This document shows positions 2,249-21,990 of a DNA stretch of 64,000 nucleotides, in pieces. The stretch is taken from positions 1,705,501-1,769,500 of the forward strand of contig NZ_AP026867.1 of NCBI RefSeq assembly GCF_026000115.1. Direction: 5' to 3'. Below the pieces are notes generated by a model. It was not told the origin of the DNA. It saw only the letters and a program-made list of their open reading frames with translations, and made no database searches. Position numbers and translations under genes: made by a program. Source of the stretch: Aureispira anguillae. Lineage in GTDB: Bacteria > Bacteroidota > Bacteroidia > Chitinophagales > Saprospiraceae. Each line of letters starts with the position of its first letter. Positions within the stretch are counted from its first letter, which is position 1.

Positions 2249-2643
2249 TTCATTGTTTTTTGATTAAAATTTAGATGAGCACATGAAAGAATACTATAAC
2301 AAAACATTTGCACAAAATAAATTTGCGCTAGACAGTTAATTTATCAAATTGCATCAAAAAAATAAAGGCTAAAGAACACAGCATAACAGCACTAAAAACG
2401 CTATATTTATGCATTTTTAAATGAGATATAAATAAAAAAGGATTTAATTGAACTTTTTTGAAATAATTAGAGTTGTACAAAATACCCCCAAACAAACATT
2501 CCCTCCTTAAAATAGACTAAGACAGCAGATAAACAAGTATAGCATTGTTATGCCACCTGTAACATGCCTTCATGATTTAACTTCGTTACGCACCATATTC
2601 TTATGGTGATAGTGAATCCATCATGAGGACTTATTTGTAAACC
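2249..2643. other. Intergenic region upstream of the giant gene
   Basis: About 400 bp without a plausible gene, strongly A+T-rich. It must hold the promoters for the minus-strand 104-residue gene and for the giant gene. A perfect hairpin CACCATA-TTCT-TATGGTG (2591-2608) lies about 60 bp before the giant gene and could be an operator or leader structure. No convincing -33/-7 promoter pair was found by eye. Confidence 0.4.
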
Positions 2644-2670
2644 ATGAAAACGCTTAAACCTTCTGTATGA
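2644..2670 (+). CDS. Eight-codon upstream ORF overlapping the giant gene start
   Basis: ATG at 2644 opens a short frame encoding MKTLKPSV and stops at TGA 2668-2670. That stop overlaps the ATG of the giant gene (2667) as ATGA. The arrangement fits a leader peptide coupled by termination-reinitiation, or it may only mean that translation starts here by chance. The same ATGA overlap recurs four times downstream. The coding call is speculative. Confidence 0.3.
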   Translation: MKTLKPSV

Positions 2671-5600: not shown

Positions 5601-8600
5601 GTAGTTGGAGGAAATTCAAACCGACCTTTGGTTCAAAAATCATCTGGAGCATTTATTAGTTGTTTGACCGTTGCAGGGCAAGTTGTAACTCAAAAATGGC
5701 GAAAAAATATACAATCAGCGGGGAATAATGTTGGGTATTCAACCATGGTTGCAATTGCTTACGGAGCAAATCGCTTATTTGGCATTTGTTACAGTGAACT
5801 TTCCCATGGTTCTTTTCTTTTTGAGTTAGAAAAAACGACAGGAGATTTAGGCGCTATTGCTGAAATAGGAAATTTTGGTGCCCATGAACTATTAGTAGAT
5901 AGTGGTTCTTGTGTAATATCAGGGAGAGGTATTACCACTCGTGAATTAATGGCAATGAAAGTAGGATTACCTGTTCTTAATGCCAACACGTGGAATACAG
6001 CAAGTTCTGCCATTATTAGAACCTATTCAGATACTTATTTGGCACCATCTTGGAATGGACTGTATCGCCAAGAGGAAGCCTTTTTATCCAAACCTCAAAA
6101 TCTAGTTGTGTCACCCAATGGAGGTTATATGCTAATCAATGAAATGAGTTTATCTCCTCTGATCGTTATTGCCAATGGACTTAGTCCAATTCAACTGGCT
6201 ATTAATAAATTAGATAATGTATTGGTTAGTGCCTGTATAGGAACCGCCAATACTTTATTAAGAGGAATCATAACACAGATCGACTTTCCCACAATTACTG
6301 ACTCTATCCATTTGGGCGTAAATTATGATACAGCAACCGTTCATGATTCTTTAAATTCTTTTGTATGTTTTGACCCTTATTGCGGTGCTGTAAACGCTCA
6401 ATTTTCTTTTCAGAAATGTGCACAGGATAGTTTGTTACTAACAAGCGCATTATCTGCTATAGGAGATTATAGTTATCAATGGAGTCCTTCTATTCATTTG
6501 AGCAATGATACGATTCTAGAACCAATAACAACAACGCCAGTCAATCAGGTTTACAGGTTGGTAATAACAGAAAATAGCACAGGCTGCCAAGTATCTGATG
6601 CTGAGTACACTGTTTACGCCTTACAAGATGATACCTTAGAATTTAACATTCCTTGTCTAGGAATTGATACAAATTTATATTCTTATAATACAAACAGTAA
6701 TGAAAATGAAATTAACTTAAGTTATTTACTAACAAGTTCAAGCATACCACAAGGTGGCAAATGGCTTTTCCCTGGGACAATAAATGCTTCTATTGATACG
6801 GTTGGAGATGATTTATTACATTTTAGTGGTACTTTAAGCGCTTTTAGTGAACTTCATTACCAATTTGGAATGTGTAAGAATCAAATAGCTATTTTTAACT
6901 TGGGTTTAAATGCTGCTATTTCAGGTGCCTCATCTAGGACTGTTTGTAGTGGTGAAACCATTACATTTCAAGGAGCCAATAGTGTAGGATGGACACATCA
7001 ATGGTTTATAATTCCTCCAACAGGAGGAGGCTTTGTAGCAGGAGTGGGGCCCAACCTCACTTATACATTTACTTATGATACCACTCTTTCTTCAACCTCA
7101 CATGGATATATAGTATTCCATCGTGTTGGGACTCCTTGTGCCGTTGATAGCTTATTGTATGCTCCCCCGCCTAATTTTTCAAATTTTGAAGAGGTTTTTG
7201 TTAGGGTATACAATGCCTTGGCAAATATTAGCCTAGATACTTGTGCAGGGATTCTAAATGTATCCCCCAATAGCCCAACCGATACCATCCAATGGTACGA
7301 AGTCAATAGTGGTCTAATAACAGGAGCAACAAGCCATAATTATCAGCCATTAACCAACGGCTCTTATTATGCAACGGTTCAAACAGAACACTGTGATTTT
7401 ACTAGTGACACCTTTCATTACACCATTCCTTTACCCATTGCAAGTACAGCAAGTGTAAGTTCCAATTACAATGGAGTGGACATCTCTTGTTATGGCGCAG
7501 CAGATGGAACAGCAACGGTTACGGTTAATAACGGGTTGGCACCTTATAGCTACTTATGGTCTAATGGAGACAGTACTGCTATAGCGACCGATTTAGCCGC
7601 AGGAAGCTATCAAGTAAGCGTCATAGATGCCTGTTTGGATACGACAGTAGCTACTGTCAACCTAACAGCACCGCCCCTTTTACTCGTAACAGTAGACAGC
7701 ATGAAACAGGTCAGTTGTTTTGGAGGCAGTGATGCTACAATCCATGTAACAGGAACAGGCGGAACACCAACCTACAGCTATTTATGGTCGAATGGAGACA
7801 GTACCACTATCGCTACAGGTTTAGCCGCAGGAGTAGCAATTGTGAGCTTAACCGATAACAATGGTTGTCAGACAACGGCTGTGGTAACCATTACAGAGCC
7901 TAATCCGATTAGCATCAGCATCAACACCATTATCCCTATTAGCTGTGCAGGAGCCAATGATGGACAAGCTACTGCCATGGCAACAGGTGGAACCATGCCT
8001 TATAGCTATTTATGGTCGAATGGAGAGACCAACGCCACCGCAACACAATTGGTCGTTGGTAGCAATACGGTCACCATTACCGATGCCAATCAATGTACTG
8101 CATCAAGGTCAATGACCTTGGCACAACCAGCACCGTTAAATCTTGCCTTGCAAGTGATCAATAGCCTTAATTGTAGCTATGACAGCAACGGTCAAATACA
8201 GGTTGTCCCAACAGGAGGCACAACGCCGTATACTTATCAATGGAGCAATGGACAAAGCAATGCCCTAATTACAGGGCTTTCTATGGGTACTTATACCGTC
8301 ACTGTTACTAGTGCCAACAATTGTAGCAATATAGATTCTATTACGCTAAGCAGTCCCGCACTGCCTACAGTTATCAGCACAGCTAGCCCTGTATCTTGTT
8401 ATGGGTTTACTGATGGGCAAATAGCCACAAGCGTCAGTGGAACTACTGCGCCTTACAGCTATTTGTGGTCCAATAATAGTACGAATGCAACCGCTACAGG
8501 ATTGGCAAGTGGCTTACACAGCGTCACCATTACCGATGTGAATGGTTGTACGATTACGAATGTTGATACGCTAACAGAGCCAACTCTTGTACAAAGAACC

Positions 8601-11600
8601 ATCAGCAATACAACTATCACCTGCCCTAATGGAAATGATGGTCAAGCGTCTATACTTGTCTCAGGAGGAACTGCTCCCTATTCTTATTCTTGGTCTAATG
8701 GTGGGACAAATAGCTCAATTACTAGCTTAACAGCAGGTTTATATACGGTAACCGTAGCGGATGCCAATAATTGCACCACTGTAGATTCGATAAACATCAC
8801 AGCTCCTACCATCAATAGTACGGCGAATAGTACGCCAGTAAGTTGCTATGGAGGCAATGATGGAAGTGTAACGGTTGTTGTAACAGGAGGAACCGCTCCC
8901 TATGTTTACAGTATTGATGGAACAAACTTTCAGTCTTTAGGAACCTTTACAAATCTGGGAGCAGGACTAGATACCATAACCATAATAGATGCAAATGGCT
9001 GTATAACAATCCAGCCCATAACGATACTCGAGCCTACTCCAATCACCTCAACGATCAATACCATGAATGCCGTTACTTGTAGTTATGGTACAGATGGTAC
9101 AATAGAAGTCGTTCCAACAGGAGGCACAACGCCGTATACCTATCAATGGAGCAATGGACAAAACAATGCTCTTATCTCAGGGCTTTCTACGGGTACTTAT
9201 ACGGTCACCATTATAGATGCCAACAATTGTAGCCATACGGATTCTATTACGCTAAGCAGTCCCGCACTGCCTACGGTTATCAGCACGGCTAGCCCTGTAT
9301 CTTGTTATGGGTTTGCTGACGGACAAATAACCACAAGCGTCAGTGGAACTACCGCACCTTATAGTTATTTATGGTCAAATAATAGCACCAATGCAACCGC
9401 TACAGGATTGGCAAGTGGCTTACACAGCGTCACCATTACCGATGTAAATGGCTGTACAATTACGAGTGCTGAAACCGTGACCCAACCCAATGCTTTAAAT
9501 GCAGTACTCAGTAGTACGCCAATCAATTGCATCAGCGCCAATAGTGGAAGTATTAACAGCTTGATAAGTGGCGGGAGCAGCCCATATACCTATCTGTGGT
9601 CGAATGGAGCAAGCAGTCAAGCTATTTCAGGACTCACCGCAGGTACCTACTGTATCACTGTAAGTGATGCAAACGGCTGTACCTTTACCGACTGTGATTC
9701 TATAATGCCGCTAAATAGTCCTTTATCTATTGTTAAAACCGTAGATAAAGACAGCATTGTGCCCTATGATACGGTTTGTTATCGTATATTAGTAACCAAC
9801 CATTGCCAAACGAGCCATAACATCGTTGTAACAGATACCTTAGCCATGGGCTTATTGGTGAATGCTTTAGGGAACTTTCATTATGATACAAACACAGGCG
9901 TTTTGATAGATACGGCAACCATAGCAGCAGGAATGACCGATACCCTTGCCTTTAAAGTGCGGGTATTAAGGACCCCTCGATGCGATAGTATGAATAGTAT
10001 TCTAAATCAAGCCCATGCCTTTGAACTGGGGAACCCAAGCCAATCGGTAAGCGATGAGGTTCGCATCTGGGTACAAGATACCTTTGCGAGCAATTGTACT
10101 CCTTTACTTGATACCATCTCCTTTAGTGCTGCGATACAAGCAGGAGAGCTATTGGATGCAGGCACGGCTCAAACAACCAATCAAACCGTAACTATCACAG
10201 GGGTTTGGCGAGTAGACCCTGGAACAAGCTATCACTTTACCAGTGGTTCAGTTGTTCGGATGAATCCAGGAGCGCAAATCATTGTATCATCTGGAGCAAG
10301 CTTAGTCCTCAACAATGCAACCGTTCGAGCGGCTTGCACCAACTGTATGTGGCAACGCATTTTGGTAGAAGGTGGCGGACGCTTAACCACCAGAAACAAT
10401 ACCATTCTTAGAGATGCCCAATATGCGATACAAGCAGCGGACAATTCAGAGTTGAGAAGAATCTCCAAAACAACGTTCCGAAATAACTTTATTGGAATAT
10501 ATGTAGCACCCAATGGCAGCAACAATGTTTTGGTGGGGCGTTTTGCCAACAATAGCTTTTCGGCATCAGGAATTCCTGCCCCCTTTGTTGGAGCAGCAAG
10601 TACCCCATCTTTGGACATCAATGGAGATACCGTACAATTGGCAGTCCCTCCACCCCATCCAACCAACCTTGTTATGGGCTTGGCAGGGATTTTAGCCTGG
10701 GACATTCCAGCGCTGAATCTCAATCTGCCTACAGCTACGCCTTCCAATACTTTCCAACGAGTCGTCGCAGGAATTGTATTGTTTAACACCAATTTTTCCA
10801 CCAATTCTTGCTTATTCAAGCGCATTACGAGCGATGCTGTTTACCCATCTAGCCTAGCCTATCAAGGCTGTGGGATTCATGTTCGAGCAGCTGGAGCATT
10901 GGGGGTGAACAATATTTTGGTGGAAAGCTGTGAGTTTAACAGTTGTGACATAGGTATTTCAGGGATAGGACTGGGCATACAAGCCTATCACAATACCATG
11001 AGTAGAATCAGTGATATGGGCATTCGTTCCATTAATCTTTTTGATACCAGACTTTACGCTCGTTTTAATCATTTTACCAAAATGAGAAGACTGGGCATTG
11101 GGGTCTTCAACCCACTTAGTCCTAGTGACATCTGGATAGATCAAAATGAAATAGCCATGCGTACAGCAGCAGGGCAAGGGGCTGGTATACTGATTAATGA
11201 CAGCCCCCTAACAGGAGCCGCTTCTTCTTTGAGAATTTCTAGCAATACCTTAGAAGCCAACCAAGCGCAAAATGGCATTGTGGTGAGCAATCATAACAAT
11301 AGTGCTGTTAATTTGATTGGCGTAATTCAGAATAATACCATCACTATGAAAGGCGCTAGCCCTGAACGTGCAGGGATTAGTGTACTCAATAGTCGTCTTT
11401 TGGTGGAATGCAATAGCATTGAGGGCAATAGGCAAACGCTGAATGCTGCAGATGTATTTGGAATAGTGGGCGCTACCAATGCTACACTAGGGGGACAGAG
11501 TATTTATCAGTGTAATCAGGTAGATAGGACCAATATTGGGGTCTATTTTGAAGGCTTTAATAATCTGCAGTTTAGAGGGAATCGGTTTGATCGGCATGAT

Positions 11601-12878
11601 GTTGGGCTCCTAATGGATGCTGGAGCTATTATTGGGCAGCAAGATTATAATGGTAATCTTTGGGCTGGTGGAGCTAGTCAAGATGCATGGCATCAGGGGT
11701 TAAGTAATCCTTTTATTGTATCTCAATCACAGTTCAGAATAGACCCAAGTTTTAATCCAGATATAGAACCTAATAATATAGGACAATTAGGTGGCTGGTT
11801 TGTTAGCCTGCCAGGAACTTCAAATTTTAACTGTAATAGTCCACAATTAATTTGTGGTTCTCCTTTATTGAGATTAGCTAATTCCAATCCAACTAATAAT
11901 GTGAATGTAGTAGATCATACTATTGCTAATGGAGGATTAAGTGCTATAAAGGTAACAGAGTATAATGGGAAAAGAGCCTTGTTTAGAAAATTATCAACAA
12001 ATCCAAACTTAGCCACAAATAGCTCAAGCTCTAATATTCAAAGCTTTATAAGCAATCATCAAAGTTCCTGTATAGAGCATTTTGATCATATTGTAGATCA
12101 ATGCTCGCAGGCACTTACTATAAGCTCAATAGATTCTACTCTGTTAGATAGTTTAAAAAATACCTGTGCTTGTTATTTAGATTCTTTACAATGTTTAGAC
12201 TCAACTTTGTGCGTAAATTATACAACTGTAACAGCAAATAAAAGGACTGCTTTAGTTAATAATTTAAGCACAACCCTTCAGCAAGAGCAAGCTTTTCTGA
12301 ATAATTTAAGTATTCAACAACAAACAGCATTAATACCAGTGTTGAATGCTAACAATGGGTTTAATACAGCTATTACACATGAATTTTTAGAAAAAGAAGT
12401 CAATAATATTTACTTGAATACTCTAGCTAGAGGAAAGCTTTCTTTTAGCAGTAGACAACTCAGCACATTAAGAATGATTGCTGCTTACTGCCCACAAGAA
12501 GGAGGGATTGCTGTTCACCAAGCCAGAGGAATGCTTTCTATGATAGAGAATGTTGATTTATTAAACTTTGATTGTCGTTCTAATTTTCGCTCTAAGTCAA
12601 CAAAACAAGATCATGCTACTGTAAATGATAAATGGGAAGTAATCTTATCCCCCAATCCAACAAGGAATGGCATAACAATACAAAGTAATCTTGTTTTAGA
12701 AGATAACACTCTAGTAGAAATCTATAATGCATTAGGACAAAAAGTAAAAACGATATCTATTAATGAAAATACGAAAAGTATAAAAATAGATACTCATTCA
12801 TTTTTAGATGGTGTATATCTCATGCATCTTAAAAATCAAAATAATACAATAATAAAAGCCTTTATTGTGGCGAAATAA
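2667..12878 (+). CDS. Giant secreted M43-protease/SprB-repeat/beta-helix protein with T9SS tail
   Basis: 3,403 residues, secreted. Signal peptide MKTILFIVMVCLWHAFASAQ; LamG-like domain at ~22-205 (FDGVDDY, LDELRIWD, GYWNFEENTG); M43 (cytophagalysin/pappalysin-type) metalloprotease at ~360-635 with HEAGHWLGLYH at 530-540 and the Met-turn MDY at 593; PKD-like and unassigned beta-rich regions to ~1600. Ten SprB repeats of ~75 residues follow at ~1605-2345 (core SYLWSNG...T.LAAGxYxVxVxDANGC). Then a DUF11-like domain (~2352-2470), a right-handed beta-helix (~2490-3010), a variable region, and a T9SS type A sorting tail at ~3325-3403 (LSPNPTRNG, LGQKV, DGVYLMHLKN). SprB is the Flavobacterium gliding adhesin, so an extracellular adhesin or processing protease is likely. 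The segments differ visibly in base composition, suggesting mosaic assembly. Confidence 0.92.
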   Translation: MKTILFIVMVCLWHAFASAQTSLTFDGVDDYTHVNYYPQLDLGTGNFTLEAMLSTVDFSLSDTLTLFSQRNQASNQGLRWSLTNNAILLQIGSMSYSINHSFTGCSHLAIVRENGTLLFYADHLLLGTQVLVGTVSTTCINCDLWMGKDVDNSDFFKGSLDELRIWDIARSSANIASYELSCLDSTSIAHSNLVGYWNFEENTGQFANNLSSVAHYARLGSTFYADSNDPTWTSTSCLSSACYTTGLADFTLSDNNPKEADLVTLYNNSAGGAVAFWCINGDTTLSVNSLQYAFPLGMNIIQLAVNTASGLTVRTFLLDVKRPKYPCGADELLEWRRLNDPLSNYGSSLQVLNMIRNANAAPPQDSIYYIPVVFHVIADNQARLSSFPNTRIQEQLDTLNAHFSKNNTNVIFCLAENLPTDIPQNQWSSFGTAATPGLPGITYTLDTLHQITTINFAQNRILTGLANNLPFKPEEYLSVYITDSVLLPDSTPVLGVSAVGPSFQVSDGIGIQYEAFVGGTAAPLGKVLIHEAGHWLGLYHVFDDGFNGDGICDTYTQPIPTQDVVPSILNCDSSYSGTICPPGIPYNQGENHMDYHLETCLDFFSPGQVNAMNRLLDIGRPFIHSELNLINTGVQKVGGCLDTTNLTASFAISANGVCAGESLLLNGAVIDYDSWQWSVNWDATKNDNQPMPTGAMITLSNDSGSISSPMTSVLISEPGIWDISLTVMHLDTSTGATIPITISDTVAVTILDCTVSDQRYRITTTFDSSDWQLSMVSIDAVEASLGDTTQGYILTGTSQKDSIEVGVLMQVDLLGINQWRKTIRSAYGAVRLFDVVSGVNYNGLTDCYALTGHVNTGNTTNLLFIITNKQGTVLYQENYPMENGGIPLAHTAGFQVIQLSSAFNNQFAIVGVTGEGVDTTAPKSGFIVGIDPTLGLGNSLVWSHFYESTAPTVRYDYDILESVVEIKADFGNGLEAALVVGGNSNRPLVQKSSGAFISCLTVAGQVVTQKWRKNIQSAGNNVGYSTMVAIAYGANRLFGICYSELSHGSFLFELEKTTGDLGAIAEIGNFGAHELLVDSGSCVISGRGITTRELMAMKVGLPVLNANTWNTASSAIIRTYSDTYLAPSWNGLYRQEEAFLSKPQNLVVSPNGGYMLINEMSLSPLIVIANGLSPIQLAINKLDNVLVSACIGTANTLLRGIITQIDFPTITDSIHLGVNYDTATVHDSLNSFVCFDPYCGAVNAQFSFQKCAQDSLLLTSALSAIGDYSYQWSPSIHLSNDTILEPITTTPVNQVYRLVITENSTGCQVSDAEYTVYALQDDTLEFNIPCLGIDTNLYSYNTNSNENEINLSYLLTSSSIPQGGKWLFPGTINASIDTVGDDLLHFSGTLSAFSELHYQFGMCKNQIAIFNLGLNAAISGASSRTVCSGETITFQGANSVGWTHQWFIIPPTGGGFVAGVGPNLTYTFTYDTTLSSTSHGYIVFHRVGTPCAVDSLLYAPPPNFSNFEEVFVRVYNALANISLDTCAGILNVSPNSPTDTIQWYEVNSGLITGATSHNYQPLTNGSYYATVQTEHCDFTSDTFHYTIPLPIASTASVSSNYNGVDISCYGAADGTATVTVNNGLAPYSYLWSNGDSTAIATDLAAGSYQVSVIDACLDTTVATVNLTAPPLLLVTVDSMKQVSCFGGSDATIHVTGTGGTPTYSYLWSNGDSTTIATGLAAGVAIVSLTDNNGCQTTAVVTITEPNPISISINTIIPISCAGANDGQATAMATGGTMPYSYLWSNGETNATATQLVVGSNTVTITDANQCTASRSMTLAQPAPLNLALQVINSLNCSYDSNGQIQVVPTGGTTPYTYQWSNGQSNALITGLSMGTYTVTVTSANNCSNIDSITLSSPALPTVISTASPVSCYGFTDGQIATSVSGTTAPYSYLWSNNSTNATATGLASGLHSVTITDVNGCTITNVDTLTEPTLVQRTISNTTITCPNGNDGQASILVSGGTAPYSYSWSNGGTNSSITSLTAGLYTVTVADANNCTTVDSINITAPTINSTANSTPVSCYGGNDGSVTVVVTGGTAPYVYSIDGTNFQSLGTFTNLGAGLDTITIIDANGCITIQPITILEPTPITSTINTMNAVTCSYGTDGTIEVVPTGGTTPYTYQWSNGQNNALISGLSTGTYTVTIIDANNCSHTDSITLSSPALPTVISTASPVSCYGFADGQITTSVSGTTAPYSYLWSNNSTNATATGLASGLHSVTITDVNGCTITSAETVTQPNALNAVLSSTPINCISANSGSINSLISGGSSPYTYLWSNGASSQAISGLTAGTYCITVSDANGCTFTDCDSIMPLNSPLSIVKTVDKDSIVPYDTVCYRILVTNHCQTSHNIVVTDTLAMGLLVNALGNFHYDTNTGVLIDTATIAAGMTDTLAFKVRVLRTPRCDSMNSILNQAHAFELGNPSQSVSDEVRIWVQDTFASNCTPLLDTISFSAAIQAGELLDAGTAQTTNQTVTITGVWRVDPGTSYHFTSGSVVRMNPGAQIIVSSGASLVLNNATVRAACTNCMWQRILVEGGGRLTTRNNTILRDAQYAIQAADNSELRRISKTTFRNNFIGIYVAPNGSNNVLVGRFANNSFSASGIPAPFVGAASTPSLDINGDTVQLAVPPPHPTNLVMGLAGILAWDIPALNLNLPTATPSNTFQRVVAGIVLFNTNFSTNSCLFKRITSDAVYPSSLAYQGCGIHVRAAGALGVNNILVESCEFNSCDIGISGIGLGIQAYHNTMSRISDMGIRSINLFDTRLYARFNHFTKMRRLGIGVFNPLSPSDIWIDQNEIAMRTAAGQGAGILINDSPLTGAASSLRISSNTLEANQAQNGIVVSNHNNSAVNLIGVIQNNTITMKGASPERAGISVLNSRLLVECNSIEGNRQTLNAADVFGIVGATNATLGGQSIYQCNQVDRTNIGVYFEGFNNLQFRGNRFDRHDVGLLMDAGAIIGQQDYNGNLWAGGASQDAWHQGLSNPFIVSQSQFRIDPSFNPDIEPNNIGQLGGWFVSLPGTSNFNCNSPQLICGSPLLRLANSNPTNNVNVVDHTIANGGLSAIKVTEYNGKRALFRKLSTNPNLATNSSSSNIQSFISNHQSSCIEHFDHIVDQCSQALTISSIDSTLLDSLKNTCACYLDSLQCLDSTLCVNYTTVTANKRTALVNNLSTTLQQEQAFLNNLSIQQQTALIPVLNANNGFNTAITHEFLEKEVNNIYLNTLARGKLSFSSRQLSTLRMIAAYCPQEGGIAVHQARGMLSMIENVDLLNFDCRSNFRSKSTKQDHATVNDKWEVILSPNPTRNGITIQSNLVLEDNTLVEIYNALGQKVKTISINENTKSIKIDTHSFLDGVYLMHLKNQNNTIIKAFIVAK
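7480..9700 (+). repeat. Ten SprB repeats, including a duplicated pair
   Basis: Ten in-frame units of ~222-228 bp, each encoding a Cys-rich beta-sandwich repeat (SC.G..DG....V.GG..PYSYLWSNG ... TVTITDANGC). Units 4-5 and units 8-9 are nearly identical in DNA: the shared stretch around 8211 recurs at 9117, a fixed offset of 906 bp. This points to a recent internal duplication of a four-unit block or to conversion between repeats. Confidence 0.85.
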
Positions 12879-12886
12879 TTAACCTA

Positions 12887-12923
12887 GCCCAAAGAGATAA
12901 ATTCTATTTCTTTGGGCTTTTTT
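12887..12923 (+). terminator. Terminator of the giant gene
   Basis: GCCCAAAGA (12887-12895) pairs with TCTTTGGGC (12909-12917) and is followed by six T residues. Relatives of this GCCCAAA...TTTGGGC hairpin close the following repeat modules, so the terminator belongs to the duplicated unit. Confidence 0.85.
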
Positions 12924-12934
12924 ATCTTTTTTAA

Positions 12935-14416
12935 ATGAAATATTTTTTTATCCTATTTAGTTTGGGTTTTTTTTCAAGTTGTTTTGCACAACAATATGAT
13001 AAGAACTGGTTACTAGGAGGTCATACAGCTTTGCCTTCTGCTAAAGCTGCCTTTTCTTCGAGTACCTTAATAATAGACACTTTAATTAGAAATATGCCTA
13101 TAACTCGTACAGCTCTTTCTATGTCAGATAGTCTAGGGAATCTAATTTTTTATTCTAATGGAATAAAAGTCCATAATGCCCAGCATCAGTTAATGCAAAA
13201 TGGAGATAGTTTAAATCCTGGACAAATAGCGAATAATAATAGTGTTATAGGCTATACTATTAATGAAGGAATAATATCAATTCCTCACCCAAGCCAAGCT
13301 AACAAATACTATATATTTCATCAAGCAGCAACTTATACAAGCGTCGTAGCAGGATTTGCTGAAAAACTCTATTATACTCTAATAGATATGAATGCTAATG
13401 GAGGTTTAGGAAAAGTAGAAAAAAAGAATCAAATTTTATTAGAAAATGATTCTATGTGTGGAGGACAATTAGAAGTAGTCAAGCATGGTAATGGTAGAGA
13501 TTGGTGGCTTATTCAACCAATGAGTGGTTCTAATGGTTATCATATTTTTTTGATTGAAGGAAATGCTATTAATTACCATCACAAACAATACCTTGGTGCT
13601 TCTAAAATATTAGGGAGCGAGGTAGCAGGACAAGCTACATTTAGCCATGATGGAAATAAATATTTTAGATATGACTATAGAAATGACTTAGATATTTATG
13701 ATTTTGATAGATGTACAGGGTTGCTTTCTAATTATTTGCACATACCTATTATTGACTCTATTGACAATATCACCAATAGTTTTGTTTTAACAGGAGTAGC
13801 AAGCTCACCTAATGATAGATATTTGTATGTCTCCTCTTGGATATATCTTTATCAATTTGATTTATGGGCATCTAACATTGCTGCATCAATAGATACTGTG
13901 GCTGTTTATGATAATTATAAAATAGGAAACCTTCCAACTCTATTTGGTTTTATACAATCTGCCCCAAATGGCAAAATATATAGCATGATAAGTAGTGCTC
14001 CATATTTACATGTTATCAATAATCCTAATATAGGAGGAATAGGCTCTAATACGATTCAAAGGGCAGTAAACATATACTATAATAATTCTCATATTCCCAA
14101 TCTACCCCACTACAGAACCCCAACCCTATCAGGTTCAGCCTGTGATACCATCACAAGTATAGAAACTGTAGAAACACCAGAAAAAGAGATCCAAATTTAC
14201 CCCAATCCAACCAGTGGACTAGTGTATATAGAAGCCGTACAAGAGATAGAGCAACTATCCATCCATGATGCACTAGGGCGAGAAGTATATTGGTATAATC
14301 AACCTAGACAACAAGGAATAACATTAGATACCCAACAATGGGAAAATGGGATTTATTATATCAGTATATGGCTAGATGGAAAAATCATACAAGAAAAAAT
14401 ACAAGTATTGCGATGA
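12935..14416 (+). CDS. T9SS-secreted propeller-like protein, array copy 1
   Basis: 493 residues. Signal peptide MKYFFILFSLGFFSSCFAQ. The body (~20-400) has propeller-blade-like motifs: SDSLGNLIFYSNGI, PSQANKYYIFHQ, DMNANGGLGKV, KHGNGRDWWLIQP, GNKYFRYDYRNDLDIYDFD, SPNDRYLYVSS and APNGKIYSM. Similar segments form the N-terminal propeller of many T9SS-secreted Bacteroidota proteins. The T9SS type A tail lies at ~410-493 (IQIYPNPTSGLVYIE, LGREV, ENGIYYISI). The substrate or role is unknown. It is the first of four tandem paralogues. Its last ~310 bp are almost identical to copy 2, while the body has diverged. The stop overlaps the next start as ATGA. Confidence 0.85.
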   Translation: MKYFFILFSLGFFSSCFAQQYDKNWLLGGHTALPSAKAAFSSSTLIIDTLIRNMPITRTALSMSDSLGNLIFYSNGIKVHNAQHQLMQNGDSLNPGQIANNNSVIGYTINEGIISIPHPSQANKYYIFHQAATYTSVVAGFAEKLYYTLIDMNANGGLGKVEKKNQILLENDSMCGGQLEVVKHGNGRDWWLIQPMSGSNGYHIFLIEGNAINYHHKQYLGASKILGSEVAGQATFSHDGNKYFRYDYRNDLDIYDFDRCTGLLSNYLHIPIIDSIDNITNSFVLTGVASSPNDRYLYVSSWIYLYQFDLWASNIAASIDTVAVYDNYKIGNLPTLFGFIQSAPNGKIYSMISSAPYLHVINNPNIGGIGSNTIQRAVNIYYNNSHIPNLPHYRTPTLSGSACDTITSIETVETPEKEIQIYPNPTSGLVYIEAVQEIEQLSIHDALGREVYWYNQPRQQGITLDTQQWENGIYYISIWLDGKIIQEKIQVLR

Positions 14417-14826
14417 TGTACTCTACTAGTCAATTATCCGTATTGAGGTTAATTGCTTATGATTGCCCACAAGCAAGAGGAGTGTTATCTCAAGTAGAAG
14501 ATGTGAATTTCTTAGATTTTGATTGTTCTTCTAATTTACGTTCTAAGCCAATGGAGCAAGAAGAAGCATCAACAAGTGAATGGGAAATTACTTTATATCC
14601 AAATCCTACAGATGATAAATTGACAATTGAAAGTAATCAAATACTAGAGAATACAACCACGATTGAAATATATAATTCTCTAGGTCAGCAAATTAAAGTT
14701 ATTACAATCAAAGAGGATATACAGAGTATAAGCATCGATGCTAGTTCATTAATAGATGGCGTCTATATCATGCGTTTAAAAAATGGAGCTAATGTGAAAA
14801 CCAAAGCATTCGTAGTATCTAAATAA
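14413..14826 (+). CDS. Orphan copy of the giant gene's 3' end, array fragment 1
   Basis: 137 residues beginning at ATG 14413 (or 14416), overlapping the stop of copy 1. The N-terminus (STSQLSVLRLIAYDCPQ, then VEDVNFLDFDCSSNLRSKP) aligns with the giant protein's segment RQLSTLRMIAAYCPQ ... VDLLNFDCRSNFRSK. The rest is a complete T9SS type A tail (LYPNPTDDKL, LGQQIK, DGVYIMRLKN, AFVVSK). There is no signal peptide, so the product could not reach T9SS on its own. The frame is open and tidy. It is either a recombination remnant, a sequence store for repair of the giant gene, or a coupled peptide. I favour a remnant or store. Confidence 0.55.
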   Translation: MMYSTSQLSVLRLIAYDCPQARGVLSQVEDVNFLDFDCSSNLRSKPMEQEEASTSEWEITLYPNPTDDKLTIESNQILENTTTIEIYNSLGQQIKVITIKEDIQSISIDASSLIDGVYIMRLKNGANVKTKAFVVSK

Positions 14827-14882: not shown

Positions 14883-16358
14883 ATGAAATATTTAATACTT
14901 ACAATCAGTCTATTTTATTTTTCAAATACACGAGGACAACAGCATGATAACACATGGATGTTATCCCAAGAATATGGAAATTTATCCACTCAAGTAGAAT
15001 TTTTACCAACTGTTACAACTGATACAGCTATTAGGAATTTAAAAATATCAAAGACTAATTTAACTGTTTCAGATAGTTTAGGAAATCTTTTATTTTATAC
15101 AAATGGTATTAAAATTTACAATACCCAATATCAATTAATGCAAAATGGAAATGGACTGAACCCTGGGCAGTTAGCAACAAATAGTACAAATGGCTATCCT
15201 TATGTAGAAGCAATTACAAGCATCCCTCATCCAGTACAAGCTAATAAATATTATGTTTTTCATCAAGGTGTATCTTACAGTAGTGCTTTAGATGGTTTTG
15301 CAGAAAAACTCTACTATACTTTAGTGGATATGAATGCAAATGGAGGTTTAGGTAGAGTAGATAAAAAGAATCAAGTCTTATTAGAAAATGACTCGATGTG
15401 TGTAGGTCAATTAGAAGTTGTCAAACATGGTAATGGTAGAGATTGGTGGCTAATACAACCGATGGCATACTCCAATGGCTATTATATTTTTTTAATAGCA
15501 GATAGTACTATTACTTACCATCATAAACAATACATAGGCAATGTTAGTCTTCATGACTCTGAATTTATAGGACAAGCCACATTTACCCATCAAGGTGACA
15601 AGTATTTTAGATATGACCAAGAAAACGACTTAGATATGTTTGATTTTGATAGGTGCACAGGGTATTTAGCTAATTATGAACATATCCCAGTACAAGACTC
15701 GGCAGACAATGTAGCTGGTGGTTTTTTTATGGGCGTAGCTGTGTCACCCAATGATAGGTATTTGTATGTGTCTTCTTATATTTATATGTATCAATTTGAT
15801 TTATGGGCTTCTAATATTGCTAGTACCAGAGATACTGTAGGAGTCTATGACAACCACTTACATATAGGAATTTTTCAAACATTTTTTGGGTCTATACAAA
15901 CTGCTCCAGACGGAAAAATATATAGTGTATCTTTTGGTTCACCTTATCTTCATGTCATCAATAATCCTAATGTCGGTGGTGTAGGTTGTGATGTAGTACA
16001 AAGAGGACAGAATCTTTTATTTATCAATAGTCATATTCCCAACTTCCCCCACTACAGAACCCCAGCCCTATCAGGTTCAGCCTGTGATACCATCACAAGT
16101 ATAGAAACTGTAGAAACACCCGAAAAAGAGATCCAAATTTACCCCAATCCAACCAGTGGACTAGTGTATATAGAAGCCGTACAAGAGATAGAGCAACTAT
16201 CCATCCATGATGCACTAGGGCGAAAAGTATATTGGTATCATCAACCTAGACAACAAGGGATAACATTAGATACCCAACAATGGGATAATGGGATTTATTA
16301 TATCAGTATATGGCTAGATGGAAAAATTGTTCAAGAAAAGATACATGTATTGAGATGA
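14883..16358 (+). CDS. T9SS-secreted propeller-like protein, array copy 2
   Basis: 491 residues from ATG 14883, where a typical signal peptide begins (MKYLILTISLFYFSNTRGQ). Same layout as copy 1: SDSLGNLLFYTNGI, PVQANKYYVFHQ, DMNANGGLGRV, KHGNGRDWWLIQP, DKYFRYDQENDLDMFDFD, SPNDRYLYVSS, APDGKIYSV, then the T9SS tail IQIYPNPTSGLVYIE...DNGIYYISI. The tail DNA, from about 16,046 on, matches copy 1 with only scattered differences, in contrast to the diverged body. The stop overlaps the next ATG as ATGA at 16355-16358. Secreted or surface-attached; function unknown. Confidence 0.85.
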   Translation: MKYLILTISLFYFSNTRGQQHDNTWMLSQEYGNLSTQVEFLPTVTTDTAIRNLKISKTNLTVSDSLGNLLFYTNGIKIYNTQYQLMQNGNGLNPGQLATNSTNGYPYVEAITSIPHPVQANKYYVFHQGVSYSSALDGFAEKLYYTLVDMNANGGLGRVDKKNQVLLENDSMCVGQLEVVKHGNGRDWWLIQPMAYSNGYYIFLIADSTITYHHKQYIGNVSLHDSEFIGQATFTHQGDKYFRYDQENDLDMFDFDRCTGYLANYEHIPVQDSADNVAGGFFMGVAVSPNDRYLYVSSYIYMYQFDLWASNIASTRDTVGVYDNHLHIGIFQTFFGSIQTAPDGKIYSVSFGSPYLHVINNPNVGGVGCDVVQRGQNLLFINSHIPNFPHYRTPALSGSACDTITSIETVETPEKEIQIYPNPTSGLVYIEAVQEIEQLSIHDALGRKVYWYHQPRQQGITLDTQQWDNGIYYISIWLDGKIVQEKIHVLR

Positions 16359-18121
16359 GGTATGCTAATCATCAATTATCTGTTTTGCATTTTTCTGACA
16401 GCCCCCTAACAGGAGCCGCTTCTTCTTTGAGAATTTCTAGTAATACCTTAGAAGCCAACCAAGCGCAAAATGGCATTGTGGTGAGCAATCATAACAATAA
16501 TGCTGTTAATTTGATTGGCGTAATTCAGAATAATACCATCACTATGAAAGGCGCTAGTCCTGAACGTGCAGGGATTAGTGTACTCAATAGTCGTCTTTTG
16601 GTGGAATGCAATAGCATTGAGGGCAATAGGCAAACGCTGAATGCTGCTGATGTCTTTGGAATTGTGGGCGCTACCAATGCTACACTAGGGGGACAGAGTA
16701 TTTATCAGTGTAATGCTGTGGATAGAACCAATATTGGGGTCTATTTTGAAGGGTTTAATAATCTGCAGTTTAGAGGGAATCGGTTTGATCGGCATGAAAC
16801 TGGATTGTTGTTGGAGAGTAATGCGGTTATTGGGGTGCAACGAACGAACTTACCGAATGGTAACCAAGAATTACACGGTAATAGATGGACTGGAAATACA
16901 ACTGAAGATGCTCAAAATTTTAATTTGGCTAATCTGCCAGCATCAGTATTTTTTATTGATTTGAGCATTCCGAATAATGTGCCAAATAATTTTGGACCAA
17001 CTGGAACTTTACCCCCTACATGGTTTACGCCTCAATTTGGTACAAATACTTTTGATTGTAATACACCACAACTGATTTGTAGGGCACCTTTGTTGGCTTC
17101 TCCATTCTTTAGTACAATAAGTAGTAATAATATTTCTTTATTGACAGCAAGAGACAGTTCTTTAGCTTTAGGTACATTTACTACAACTGCTTATACTCCA
17201 AATGCAAGATATACAGGACAAAGAGGTTTATACAGAAAGTTAGTAGGAAATCCAAGTTTACAGCAAGGAATATTTAGCAATTTTGTGACGACTTGTCAGA
17301 CAAATTGTATAGGGCATTCTGATAATGTAAGTGAGCAATGTAAACAAGCATTCAGTATCATTTTTACAGATTCTTTAGTTTTAGATAGCTTGAAAAAAGT
17401 ATGTAATTATTACTTGGACACGTTATCTTGTTTGGATTCTATGTTAGCTGTTAATTATAACATTAATACAGCAAATACAAGAACTAACTTTACTCAACAA
17501 CTGATTACAGTCTCTAATCAGAGACAGGCATTATTATCAAATGTAAATAACCAACAACAGGCAAGTCTAACTCCTATTTGTAATGTGAATAATAGCATTA
17601 GTACGATTGTTAAACATGAGTTGTTTGAACAGCAAGTAAATGATATATACTTGAATACAGTTGCTAAAGGAATCTTGGAATATAGTAATAGCCAATTATC
17701 TATTTTGAGATTGATAGCATCTGATTGTCCACAGGAAGGAGGGAAAGCAGTACACACTGCAAGAGGAATGCTGTCAAGAATAGAAGATGTGAATTTTTTA
17801 GATTTTGATTGTAGCTCAAATTTACGTTCTAAGCCAATGGAGCAGAGCAATGAAAATACAAATACAATTGATATATGGGAAGTCATATTATATCCAAATC
17901 CAACAGATGATAAATTGACTGTTGAAAGTAATCAAATACTTGAGGGTGAAACAACAATTGAGATTTACAACTCTTTGGGGCAACAAGTACAAATATTAAC
18001 CATTGAGGAAGATATACAAAGCATTAACATTGATGCGAGTTCTTTATTAGATGGTGTCTACATTATGAGGTTGAAAAACGGAAATAATAGCAAAACAAAG
18101 GCTTTTGTAGTCTCCAAATAA
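16355..18121 (+). CDS. Long orphan copy of the giant gene's 3' region (alternative C-terminal cassette)
   Basis: 588 residues from the coupled ATG at 16355 (MRYANHQLSVLHF); no signal peptide. After the first 13 residues it switches abruptly into the beta-helix region of the giant protein: 16396-16797 equals 11198-11599 with 12 base differences and no gap. It then diverges strongly (ETGLLLESNAVIGVQ against DVGLLMDAGAIIGQQ) while keeping the same plan: CNTPQLICRAPLL, GLYRKLVGNPSL, VNDIYLNTVAKG, SQLSILRLIASDCPQEGG. It ends in a T9SS tail (LYPNPTDDKL...DGVYIMRLKN). The open frame is intact throughout. It can be read as an insertion of a giant-gene segment into the short orphan fragment and could act as a donor cassette for the giant gene. 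Confidence 0.6.
   Translation: MRYANHQLSVLHFSDSPLTGAASSLRISSNTLEANQAQNGIVVSNHNNNAVNLIGVIQNNTITMKGASPERAGISVLNSRLLVECNSIEGNRQTLNAADVFGIVGATNATLGGQSIYQCNAVDRTNIGVYFEGFNNLQFRGNRFDRHETGLLLESNAVIGVQRTNLPNGNQELHGNRWTGNTTEDAQNFNLANLPASVFFIDLSIPNNVPNNFGPTGTLPPTWFTPQFGTNTFDCNTPQLICRAPLLASPFFSTISSNNISLLTARDSSLALGTFTTTAYTPNARYTGQRGLYRKLVGNPSLQQGIFSNFVTTCQTNCIGHSDNVSEQCKQAFSIIFTDSLVLDSLKKVCNYYLDTLSCLDSMLAVNYNINTANTRTNFTQQLITVSNQRQALLSNVNNQQQASLTPICNVNNSISTIVKHELFEQQVNDIYLNTVAKGILEYSNSQLSILRLIASDCPQEGGKAVHTARGMLSRIEDVNFLDFDCSSNLRSKPMEQSNENTNTIDIWEVILYPNPTDDKLTVESNQILEGETTIEIYNSLGQQVQILTIEEDIQSINIDASSLLDGVYIMRLKNGNNSKTKAFVVSK
16396..16797 (+). repeat. 402-bp near-identical repeat of giant-gene segment 11198-11599
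   Basis: Aligned by eye at a constant offset of 5,198 bp. I count 12 substitutions and no indels, clustered in the second half. Identity begins and ends sharply, at TGACAGCCCC on the left and at CGGCATGA on the right. Confidence 0.9.
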
Positions 18122-18131
18122 ATAAACCTAG

Positions 18132-18167
18132 CCCAAATGCAGTTTTTATATTGTGTTTGGGATTTTT
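18132..18167 (+). terminator. Module 2 terminator
   Basis: CCCAAATGCA (18132-18141) pairs with TGTGTTTGGG (18152-18161, two G-U pairs), followed by ATTTTT. It is homologous to the other module terminators. The next gene therefore starts at ATG 18180 rather than at 18153. Confidence 0.75.
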
Positions 18168-18179
18168 ATATCGATAAAT

Positions 18180-19661
18180 ATGAAATATTTTATATCAATA
18201 ATCATTCTATTTTATTTTTCAAATGTAATAGCCCAAAAACATGATAATATTTGGTTAGTTGGAAGTTATGACCCATCAAGTCAAATAGAGTTTAATAGTA
18301 CTTCTTTCAGTCTTGATACTGTAAATAAAGGAGGGATGGAGGGATTTAGAGCAATGACCTCTATCTGTGATAGTTTAGGGAATTTATTATTTTATACCAA
18401 TGGGATTTGGGTGAATAATCATCAGCATCAGATGATGGATAATGGAGATAGTTTGAATCCTGGATTAGTAGCAGATGATTTTAGAACAGCAGGATATCCA
18501 ACATGTAACAGTATCATTATCCTTCCACATCCAGTACAAATGAATAAATATTACATCTTTCATCAGTCGATTACTTATCCATCACAAATTGCAGGATTTG
18601 CCGAGCATTTATATTATAGCTTAATAGATATGAATGCTAATGGAGGTTTGGGAAGAGTAGAATTGAAGAATCAAATTTTAGTCTCAGATAGTCTGTCTAT
18701 GGGACAAATACATGCAGTGAAGCATGCAAATGGTAGAGATTGGTGGTTGATACAAGGAAAAGGACATTCCATAGGATTTTATACTTTTTTAGTCCATGAG
18801 AATCAAATTACTTTAGAACATGAGCAATATATAGGTGATACTAGTAGAATAGGAGGCGGAGCAGAATGGAAAGGACAAGCTGTGTTCTCCTCACAAGGCG
18901 ATAAATATGTACGTTATGATTATTTGAATGACTTGGACATTTATGATTTTGATAGATGCATAGGTTTATTATCCAATAATGTCCATATTGCAATCCAAGA
19001 CTCTGCGGATTTTAATGGAGGTGTAGGAGGAGTAGCCGTATCACCAAGTGGGCAGTATTTGTATTTAGCTTCTTCCTTAGATTTATATCAATTTAACTTA
19101 TGGACTACAAATATAGAAAGTACAAAAGACACTATAGCCCATGTCGATAATTTTTATCAGTTTATTCCTGCCAATAGAGCTGCTTTTAACTTTTTGCAAT
19201 TAGCCCCAGATGGCAAAATATATGGTGTCGCCCCCAATACGACTTATATGCACGTGATAGAGTACCCAGACTCTGCAGGAACAGCTAGTAGTGTATTACA
19301 ACATCATATCAATACCAATTTTATCAATGGCTTTTTTATGCCAAACCATCCACATTACCGCACCCCAGCCCTATCAGGTTCAGCCTGTGATACCATCACC
19401 AATACAAAAACTGTAGAAATAACAGAAAAAGAAGTACAAATCTATCCCAATCCAACCAGTAGACTAGTGTATATAGAAGCCACAGAAGGGATAGAGCGAC
19501 TATCTGTTCATGATGCATTAGGGCGAGAAGTATATTGGTATCATCAACCTAGACAACAAGGAATAACATTAGATACCCAACAATGGGAAAATGGAATTTA
19601 TTATCTGAGTATATGGCTAGATGGAAAAATCATACAAGAAAAGATACAAGTATTGCGATGA
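18180..19661 (+). CDS. T9SS-secreted propeller-like protein, array copy 3
   Basis: 493 residues from ATG 18180; signal peptide MKYFISIIILFYFSNVIAQ. Shares with copy 4 features absent from copies 1-2: NKGGMEGFRAMTSICDSLGN, SQIAGFAEHLYYSLIDM, WWLIQGKGHSIGFYTFL, EYPDSAGTASSVLQHH. This makes copies 3 and 4 a distinct pair. T9SS tail VQIYPNPTSRLVYIE...ENGIYYLSI. Here SGL is changed to SRL, a small departure in an otherwise conserved tail. The stop overlaps the next ATG (19658) as ATGA. Confidence 0.85.
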   Translation: MKYFISIIILFYFSNVIAQKHDNIWLVGSYDPSSQIEFNSTSFSLDTVNKGGMEGFRAMTSICDSLGNLLFYTNGIWVNNHQHQMMDNGDSLNPGLVADDFRTAGYPTCNSIIILPHPVQMNKYYIFHQSITYPSQIAGFAEHLYYSLIDMNANGGLGRVELKNQILVSDSLSMGQIHAVKHANGRDWWLIQGKGHSIGFYTFLVHENQITLEHEQYIGDTSRIGGGAEWKGQAVFSSQGDKYVRYDYLNDLDIYDFDRCIGLLSNNVHIAIQDSADFNGGVGGVAVSPSGQYLYLASSLDLYQFNLWTTNIESTKDTIAHVDNFYQFIPANRAAFNFLQLAPDGKIYGVAPNTTYMHVIEYPDSAGTASSVLQHHINTNFINGFFMPNHPHYRTPALSGSACDTITNTKTVEITEKEVQIYPNPTSRLVYIEATEGIERLSVHDALGREVYWYHQPRQQGITLDTQQWENGIYYLSIWLDGKIIQEKIQVLR

Positions 19662-20080
19662 GGTCCTTTACTAGTCAATTATCTGCATTAAGGTTAATTG
19701 CTTATGATTGCCCACAAGAAAGAGGAATGTTATCTCAAGTAGAAGATGTGAATTTCTTAGATTTTGATTGTAGCTCGAATTTACGTTCCAAACCAATGGA
19801 AGGAAAAGATATAGAAGAAACTATATCAGATAGATGGGAAGTAGTCTTATATCCAAATCCCACAGATGATAAATTAACTATTGAAAGTGATCAAATGCTT
19901 GAAAATGAAACAACTATTGAGATTTATAATTCTATAGGACAACAAGTGCAAATCTTAACAATCAAGAAAGATGTACAAAGCATCAATATTGATGCGAGTT
20001 CATTAATGGACGGTGTTTATATCATGCGATTAAAAAATGCAGATAATAGCAAAACAAAGGCTTTTGTAGTTTCTAAATAA
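19658..20080 (+). CDS. Orphan copy of the giant gene's 3' end, array fragment 3
   Basis: 140 residues from the coupled ATG at 19658 (MRSFTSQLSALRLIAYDCPQ). It contains VEDVNFLDFDCSSNLRSKP and a complete T9SS tail (LYPNPTDDKL, IGQQVQ, DGVYIMRLKN, AFVVSK). No signal peptide. Same open status as fragment 1, with a slightly different linker (MEGKDIEETISDRWEV). Confidence 0.55.
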   Translation: MRSFTSQLSALRLIAYDCPQERGMLSQVEDVNFLDFDCSSNLRSKPMEGKDIEETISDRWEVVLYPNPTDDKLTIESDQMLENETTIEIYNSIGQQVQILTIKKDVQSINIDASSLMDGVYIMRLKNADNSKTKAFVVSK

Positions 20081-20122: not shown

Positions 20123-20136
20123 AATATTGAGTGAAT

Positions 20137-21618
20137 ATGAAGTATATAATATTAATAATCAGTTTGTTTTATTTTTCAAATGCAATAGCTCAAAAGCATG
20201 ATAATATTTGGTTGGTTGGAAATAGCGATCCTTCTACTCAAATAGAATTTAATGCTACTTCTTTTACCATTGATACTATAAACAAAGGAGGAATGGAAGC
20301 ATTTAGAGCGATGACTTCTATATGTGATAGTTTGGGTAATTTATTATTTTATACTAATGGAATTAGTGTTCATAATCATCAATATCAGTTAATGCAAAAT
20401 GGTGATACATTGAACCCTGGTCCAATATCTGATAGTTGGTACAATACAGGTTATCCAACTTGTAATAATGTTATAATCCTTCCACACCCAGTGCAAGTCA
20501 ATAAATATTATATTTTTCATCAATCTATTACTTATCCATCCCAAATTGCAGGATTTGCAGAACATCTGTATTATAGTTTGGTAGATATGAATGCCAATAA
20601 TGGATTAGGAAAAGTAGAGGTAAAAAATCAAATTTTAGTATCTGATAGTTTATCAATGGGACAAGTCCATACAGTCAAACATGCGAATGGTCGAGATTGG
20701 TGGCTAATACAAGGGAAAGGAAAGTCTATAGGTTTTTATACTTTTTTGATACATGAGAATCAAATCACTTTGGAGTATGAGCAATATATAGGAGATACCA
20801 GTCGTCAGGGAGGCGGAGCGGAATGGACAGGCAAAGCTGTGTTCTCTCCACAGGGTGATAAGTATGTTCGTTGTGATTATCTAAATGATTTGGATATTTA
20901 TGATTTTGATAGATGTACTGGCTTGTTATCTAATAATGTGCATATTGCTATCCAAGATTCTGCAGATATAAATCAAAGTCGTACTGCTGTTAGTATATCA
21001 CCAAGTGGTCAGTATTTATATATGGCTTCATTTTTAAATTTATATCAATTTGACTTATGGGCTTCTAATATTGCAAGCAGTAAAGATACAGTAGCTAGGG
21101 TAGATAATTTTTATCAGTTTTTTCCAAATAATAGAACACTATTTAATTGTTTAGAGTTAGCACCAGATGGTAAAATATATGGCGTAGCCCCTAATACAAC
21201 CTATATGCACGTGATAGAGTACCCAGACTCTGTAGGTGCAGCTTGTAGTGTTCTACAGCATCATATCAATACCAATTTTATCAATGGCTTTTTTATGCCA
21301 AACCATCCACACTACAAAAACCCAGCCCTATCAGGTTCAGCCTGTGATACCATCACCAATACAAAAACTGTAGAAATAATAGAAAAAGAAGTACAAATCT
21401 ACCCCAACCCAACTAGTAATCTAGTATATATAGAAGCCGTACAAGAGATAGAGCAACTATCCATTCATGATGCATTAGGACGAGAAGTTTATTGGTATCA
21501 TCAACCTAGACAACAAGGAATAACATTAGATACCCAACAATGGGAAAATGGAATTTATTATCTGAGTATATGGCTAGATGGAAAAATCATACAAGAAAAG
21601 ATACAAGTATTGCGATGA
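20137..21618 (+). CDS. T9SS-secreted propeller-like protein, array copy 4
   Basis: 493 residues from ATG 20137; an in-frame GTG at 20131 is possible but leaves a poorer signal peptide than MKYIILIISLFYFSNAIAQ. Closest to copy 3 (NKGGMEAFRAMTSICDSLGN, WWLIQGKGKSIGFYTFL, EYPDSVGAACSVLQHH). T9SS tail VQIYPNPTSNLVYIE...ENGIYYLSI. It is followed by an ATGA overlap into a decayed fragment, so this is the distal edge of the array. Confidence 0.85.
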   Translation: MKYIILIISLFYFSNAIAQKHDNIWLVGNSDPSTQIEFNATSFTIDTINKGGMEAFRAMTSICDSLGNLLFYTNGISVHNHQYQLMQNGDTLNPGPISDSWYNTGYPTCNNVIILPHPVQVNKYYIFHQSITYPSQIAGFAEHLYYSLVDMNANNGLGKVEVKNQILVSDSLSMGQVHTVKHANGRDWWLIQGKGKSIGFYTFLIHENQITLEYEQYIGDTSRQGGGAEWTGKAVFSPQGDKYVRCDYLNDLDIYDFDRCTGLLSNNVHIAIQDSADINQSRTAVSISPSGQYLYMASFLNLYQFDLWASNIASSKDTVARVDNFYQFFPNNRTLFNCLELAPDGKIYGVAPNTTYMHVIEYPDSVGAACSVLQHHINTNFINGFFMPNHPHYKNPALSGSACDTITNTKTVEIIEKEVQIYPNPTSNLVYIEAVQEIEQLSIHDALGREVYWYHQPRQQGITLDTQQWENGIYYLSIWLDGKIIQEKIQVLR

Positions 21619-21990
21619 TGTACTCTACTAGTCAATTATCTGTATTGAGGTTGATAGCATCAGATTGTCCACAAGAAGGAGGTACAGCAGTCCATCAAGC
21701 AAGAGGAATGTTATCTCAAGTAGAAGATGTGAATTTTTTAGATTTTGATTGTTCTTCTAGTATTCATTCTAAGCCAATGGAACAAAAAGAAGAGGTATAA
21801 ATGAATGAGTGGCAAGTTGTTCTTTATCCAAATCCAACAGATAAAGAGTTGACTATTGAAAGTAATCTCTTACTAGAAGAAATAATCACAATTGAGATAT
21901 ACAGCACTATTGGTCAGTAAGTTAAAGTCATTACAATTAAAGAAGATATACAAAACATCAGCATAGATGCAAGTTCATCAACAAAGGAAA
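21615..21990 (+). pseudogene. Decayed orphan copy of the giant gene's 3' end
   Basis: From ATG 21615 the frame reads STSQLSVLRLIASDCPQEGG ... VEDVNFLDFDCSSSIHSKP and stops at TAA 21798-21800. The same frame continues from ATG 21801 as NEWQVVLYPNPTDKELTIES, is broken again by TAA after STIGQ, then reads VKVITIKEDIQNISIDASSS before homology ends. Two in-frame stops and loss of the DGVYIMRLKN end mark it as a pseudogene of the T9SS-tail fragment. Confidence 0.85.

Follow-up and report, generated by a model that had tools for sequence, protein, structure and literature searches.

A giant T9SS surface protein gene and a downstream orphan C-terminal tail share a homology arm in Aureispira anguillae

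Orphan C-terminal arrays are already known from toxin delivery systems (CDI and Rhs). The orphan cdiA-CT/cdiI arrays of contact-dependent inhibition (CDI) systems contain C-terminal fragments separated from the full-length gene and accompanied in every case by a partner gene (PMC3150448). In Salmonella LT2 rhs, recombination through a 522-bp arm of 95% identity was shown experimentally to load an orphan tip onto the main gene (PMC3967940). For the T9SS surface proteins of P. gingivalis, the part of the published account considered here describes allelic exchange and domain rearrangement across strains (PMC5266723). New here is the occurrence of the orphan-array layout, including a 5′ homology arm, on T9SS-exported giants of Bacteroidota; a full-text literature search of open-licence papers returned no description of such arrays in T9SS systems.

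The array lies in a 64,000-nucleotide stretch of the A. anguillae chromosome (the window, to whose positions coordinates refer unless stated otherwise), with all features on the + strand. It opens with a giant gene, G (2667–12878, 3403 aa), encoding a putative signal peptide, LamG, an M43 peptidase domain, SprB repeats, a parallel beta-helix, a helical region and a T9SS sorting domain. Partner genes (A) and orphan tails (T) then alternate in the order A1 (12935–14416), the short tail T1 (14413–14826), A2 (14883–16358), the long tail T2 (16355–18121, 588 codons), A3 (18180–19661), the short tail T3 (19658–20080), A4 (20131–21618) and the decayed T4 (21615–21985). The A proteins combine a hydrophobic leader, a predicted beta-propeller and a T9SS sorting domain, as in A1; A3 is a diverged subtype to which A4 also belongs. 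Four orphan tails are therefore present, at 14413, 16355, 19658 and 21615, the last degenerate with two in-frame TAA codons. The ATG of each of the three intact orphans (T1–T3) overlaps the stop of the preceding A gene (ATGA at A1/T1). G and the A genes open with hydrophobic leaders and T1–T3 lack them, signal peptides having been judged by eye rather than with a predictor; the claim of an earlier note on this DNA that the T2 reading frame has no signal peptide held on this inspection. Terminator-like hairpins 3′ of G (12886–12918) and of T2 (18132–18161) are consensus matches only, the former of a kind no commoner than chance expectation. An ArdC-like antirestriction protein (ArdcN and MPTase-PolyVal) is encoded at 643–1584, shortly upstream of the giant, and no recombinase was found beside the array among ten nearby proteins scanned. 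A second array, at 6.50 Mb on the same chromosome (locus 2), has its own giant of 3118 aa and no long tail.

G and T2 share a homology arm. In a base-by-base self-comparison, 11198–11599 of the giant and 16396–16797 of the orphan matched at 97.015% over 402 bp with 12 mismatches, no gaps and the frame kept, reproducing the match that had been claimed. At the right edge of the arm (11599/16797), where the giant copy ends at FDRH, identity falls suddenly, from 12 differences in 399 positions to 503 in 1,254 further 3′ (Fisher p ~2e-56), bearing out the strong divergence noted before. Within the window, dS is 0.098 inside the 402-bp arm and ~1.6–2.1 (saturated) past its edge. C-terminus I of the giant (11600–12878; helix end, helical domain and T9SS tail) and C-terminus II of T2 (16798–18121), its diverged homologue, can be aligned end to end with 43–57% amino-acid identity by segment, and a Por_Secre_tail domain, a trait of T9SS substrates, was found in both giant and T2; the common domain plan and the paired T9SS tails described in the earlier note thus stand.

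Of the 12 differences in the arm, most (8.5) are synonymous, which indicates that both copies have been kept under protein-level constraint. Because such constraint does not drive dS, which steps at the edge, arm and C-terminus differ in age and were therefore joined by recombination: a young arm on an old, long-diverged C-terminus is, on the sequence evidence, a recombination joint. Simple tandem duplication of the 3′ end of G is insufficient, as it would predict equal dS in the arm and the downstream part. The 5′ side of the arm in T2 is also spliced. The listed open reading frame runs from 16310, but the ATG at 16355, on the A2 stop, is the more probable start; the first 13 codons (MRYANHQLSVLHF, 16355–16395) are those of the short tails and not the giant's, after which the sequence jumps in frame into the arm. 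A crossover between the two arm copies, computed from the sequence, would keep the frame, delete 5198 bp and yield a giant of 3418 aa, and a swap of the giant's own end through the arm is plausible.

The arm recurs in a second species of the genus (genome G003), where the order is G, A, a long orphan tail, A, a short tail, A and decayed units. There, the giant and the long orphan share 807 bp with 17 differences (~98%; 11778–12584 versus 15474–16280 of the reverse-complemented region), and the arm ends at the homologous FDRH codon, as in the window. Again dS steps, from 0.054 in the arm to 0.4–0.9 beyond, and the long orphan starts 5 nt past the A stop. With the edge at the identical codon in a second species, and a young arm on an old C-terminus in the window, the proposal of homologous recombination at the arm is upheld. 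The arms of window and G003 are only ~65% identical to each other (dS 1.6–2.8), so homogenisation took place separately in each genome. A small diverged patch lies at a like position in the arms of both species, directly after YQCN (11516–11530 in the window and 12502–12521 in the G003 region).

Orphan tail–A modules were found in at least four genera (g1, g84, g54 and g21), with orphan tails between A genes at loci L095–L099 and L101–L103 of g84, g54 and g21. Of 14 orphans, six have a 150-nt segment that matches their own giant at 89% identity or more, centred every time in the 5′ half of the orphan. The arm at L095 spans 330 bp at 96.4%, with dS of 0.04–0.07 followed by saturation. Arms in other genera have their edges elsewhere than the FDRH codon of the window and G003, and no arm was found in the locus 2 array, L098, L099 or L103.

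In anatomy the array resembles CDI and Rhs orphan arrays, but judging by the traits compared it is no member of those families. Shared with them are an exported full-length gene with leaderless fragments, an arm with a fixed boundary (in the window and G003) and a partner for each fragment; absent are VENN or DPxG motifs and tips unrelated to each other. Like cdiA-CT/cdiI (PMC3150448), the locus has a full-length exported giant with a partner gene, followed by detached C-terminal fragments with partners; these fragments have no signal peptide, and many retain a giant-homologous stretch just 5′ of a fixed boundary. Unlike in cdiA-CT/cdiI, the C-termini are homologous (at the identities given above) and finish with a T9SS sorting domain; a secreted beta-propeller takes the partner's place instead of a small immunity protein, and toxin activity is not indicated. 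The signal-peptide-like N-terminus and T9SS tail of A argue against a cytoplasmic immunity protein. The arm is comparable to that between the LT2 rhs main gene and the rhs-CT orphan (PMC3967940), with 522 bp and 95% there versus 402 bp and 97% here, but Rhs repeats and the DPxG motif are lacking, and loading, demonstrated there, is a prediction here. A motif search for VENN and the Rhs DPxG core was negative in G, T2 and relatives. With the P. gingivalis proteins the locus shares T9SS-exported modular surface proteins diversified by recombination; the part of that source considered here describes no downstream orphan tail–partner arrays (PMC5266723).

The C-terminal region of G was modelled with AlphaFold2 on 12 sequences (mean pLDDT 78.5, pTM 0.59). 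The predicted order is a right-handed parallel beta-helix (10152–11784), a helical domain and the T9SS domain, and the best PDB match of the helix model is a phage tailspike (Z 25.5). The arm corresponds to model residues 371–504 and makes up the final third of the helix. An exchange would thus replace the terminal helix rungs together with the helical and sorting domains. The C-terminal family of G is present in 127 of 298 genomes of the bacterial family at E ≤ 1e-10, many weaker matches being to the generic T9SS domain only. By a hand count from coordinates, an A gene lies directly 3′ of ~29 of the 31 G-type C-termini among the stronger matches, and the G–A pair is conserved across the family. 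A scan of the GTDB contig collection, queried with the alignment of the C-termini or with just C-terminus II, returned no further relatives and no giant bearing C-terminus II.

Orphan tails that share a truncation point, and hence diverged after truncation, were compared in pairs. Their dN/dS was 0.17 (T1/T3) and 0.11 (T1/T2 of locus 2), and none of 300 neutral simulations gave a value as low. With the exception of G003 T2, orphan tails in locus 2 and in G003 resemble one another more closely than they resemble their own giant's tail. This low dN/dS and the clustering apart from giant tails suggest that orphan tails are long-lived translated sequences. Across both genomes of this genus, all seven intact tails are followed by an intact A gene, and none of the three decayed tails is. 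The frame of the tail relative to A is −1 in the window, +1 in locus 2 and 0 or −1 in G003; programmed frameshifting or readthrough from A into the tail was set aside, as this relation varies between arrays.

Gene conversion is, as far as sequence comparison reveals it, widespread at these loci and involves the 3′ ends of A genes as well as the 5′ parts of two giants. The last ~300 nt of the A genes are 76–96% identical inside an array (87–96% in the window array, with A2 96% identical to A1) and ~52–66% identical between arrays; the A-gene bodies show no such within-array homogenisation. In the window, the homogenised ends, which encode the T9SS sorting domain, lie at 14092–14391, 16034–16333 and 19337–19636. 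The window giant and that of locus 2, 4.8 Mb apart, have ~1.25 kb of common 5′ DNA at roughly 95% identity (dS 0.18–0.33) and are diverged thereafter. This tract, which takes in ~300 bp of upstream DNA and the opening ~1 kb of the giant, pairs 2350–3620 with ~6502490–6503760 of the same chromosome (G000:C1; L056) and is mostly 90–98% identical. A 300-bp patch at 7332–7632 is 99% identical between both giants (dS 0.04) in saturated surroundings.

These observations probably reflect a G–A array in which homologous recombination at shared segments makes, moves and homogenises modules, with T2 as one such module. The array would be built on the conserved pair of a giant surface protein and its secreted propeller partner, the downstream modules each consisting of a 5′-truncated G end and the A gene behind it. 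Where segments are shared (the arm in the G beta-helix and the A-gene 3′ ends), recombination would create, move and homogenise modules while C-termini and A bodies diverge. T2 would hold C-terminus II, as a former end or an alternative one, together with its partner A3, recombination having joined it to a recently made copy of the arm of G, and renewed recombination through the arm would put C-terminus II on G in frame. We infer that T2 was displaced from, or is loadable onto, a giant, and that stop–start coupling carries translation from A into the tail. In favour of this array model are the dS step and its recurrence in G003, the spliced start of T2, the G–A pairing, the presence of orphan tail–A modules in four genera, the 5′-half position of high identity, the homogenised A 3′ ends, the low dN/dS of orphan tails, and the precedents of cdiA-CT/cdiI arrays and rhs loading. 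Against it, C-termini I and II are homologous and not unrelated modules, the arm is missing from some arrays as listed above, and in trees of the C-terminus and its regions both window sequences are insecurely placed, with support too weak to tell which C-terminus moved.

Since recombination is general at these loci, conversion of the arm alone is a serious rival, although we judge it unlikely. Under such plain concerted evolution, T2 would be the 3′ remnant of a second, ancient giant within a tandem G–A array; conversion would recopy the arm and halt where homology falls, the C-termini never having been exchanged. Conversion limited to the arm would give an equal dS step without any movement of the C-terminus, and conversion tracts do occur elsewhere, as at the 5′ ends of the giants and in the 99% patch. 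Past the edge, moreover, both T2 copies have TGLLL versus GLLMD in the giants, so the types may have stayed put, a comparison of only ~10 residues. A3 and A4, as a diverged subtype beside C-terminus II, are what an old second array would be expected to contain, and the lack of a recombinase among the scanned neighbours fits as well. By itself, however, concerted evolution leaves unexplained why the high-identity stretches fall in the 5′ half in all six cases and why a short-tail start is spliced to the arm in T2.

Rather less probable is that the orphan tails are functional small genes, translated after A by stop–start coupling, with the arm of T2 incidental. The dN/dS of ~0.11–0.17 between post-truncation orphans, the ATGA overlaps in the window and the association of intact tails with intact A genes in the two genomes would all agree with this. 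Without a signal peptide, however, their T9SS sorting domain would be stuck in the cytoplasm, their frame relation to A varies between arrays, and A appears independent of tails, given tail-less A–A tandems and a remnant tail before an intact A gene (L097).

Improbable, in our view, is silent-cassette antigenic variation, in which T2 and the other tails would be unexpressed donors for one-way segmental conversion of the expressed 3′ end of the giant. As in vls and pilS, one expressed surface gene has several partial copies that lack its signal peptide. The single full-length gene here precedes the copies, the arm and domain plan are conserved, and a further 95–97% tract occurs in G003 (13431–13530). 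Unlike in vls and pilS, the copies alternate with partner genes, have their ATG on the A stop and show purifying selection; they also cluster apart from giant tails, and each comes with an A gene, for which a pure donor would have no use. The silence attributed to the T2 donor is therefore doubtful, since orphan tails are under purifying selection and the intact ones of the window have a start codon overlapping the A stop. A mis-join of the assembly at the 402-bp repeat is very improbable: nothing was found in its favour, the arm carries 12 substitutions, and arms of other sequence occupy the equivalent place both in other genera and in a separate genome assembled into 2 contigs.

A broader and more tentative extension of the array model, somewhat doubtful at present, is family-wide exchange of C-termini in T9SS giants. 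The giant's end and its propeller partner would be replaceable, with displaced modules stored as translated orphans and reloaded via the beta-helix arm, like Rhs or CDI tips but homologous, non-toxin and with secreted partners. Occurrence of the CDI and Rhs layout, with its 5′ arm, on T9SS-exported giants would suggest that tip loading by recombination is a general means of diversifying huge surface proteins, whatever the export route and whether or not toxins are involved. A G-type C-terminus or a truncated tail between beta-propeller T9SS genes can serve as a search handle for such arrays. In other genera, A genes stand in tandem without tails at L105, L106 and L101; a requirement of the orphan tail for expression of the next A gene was dropped, as such tandems exist. 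In several genomes the A gene is strongly amplified, to as many as 24 matches.
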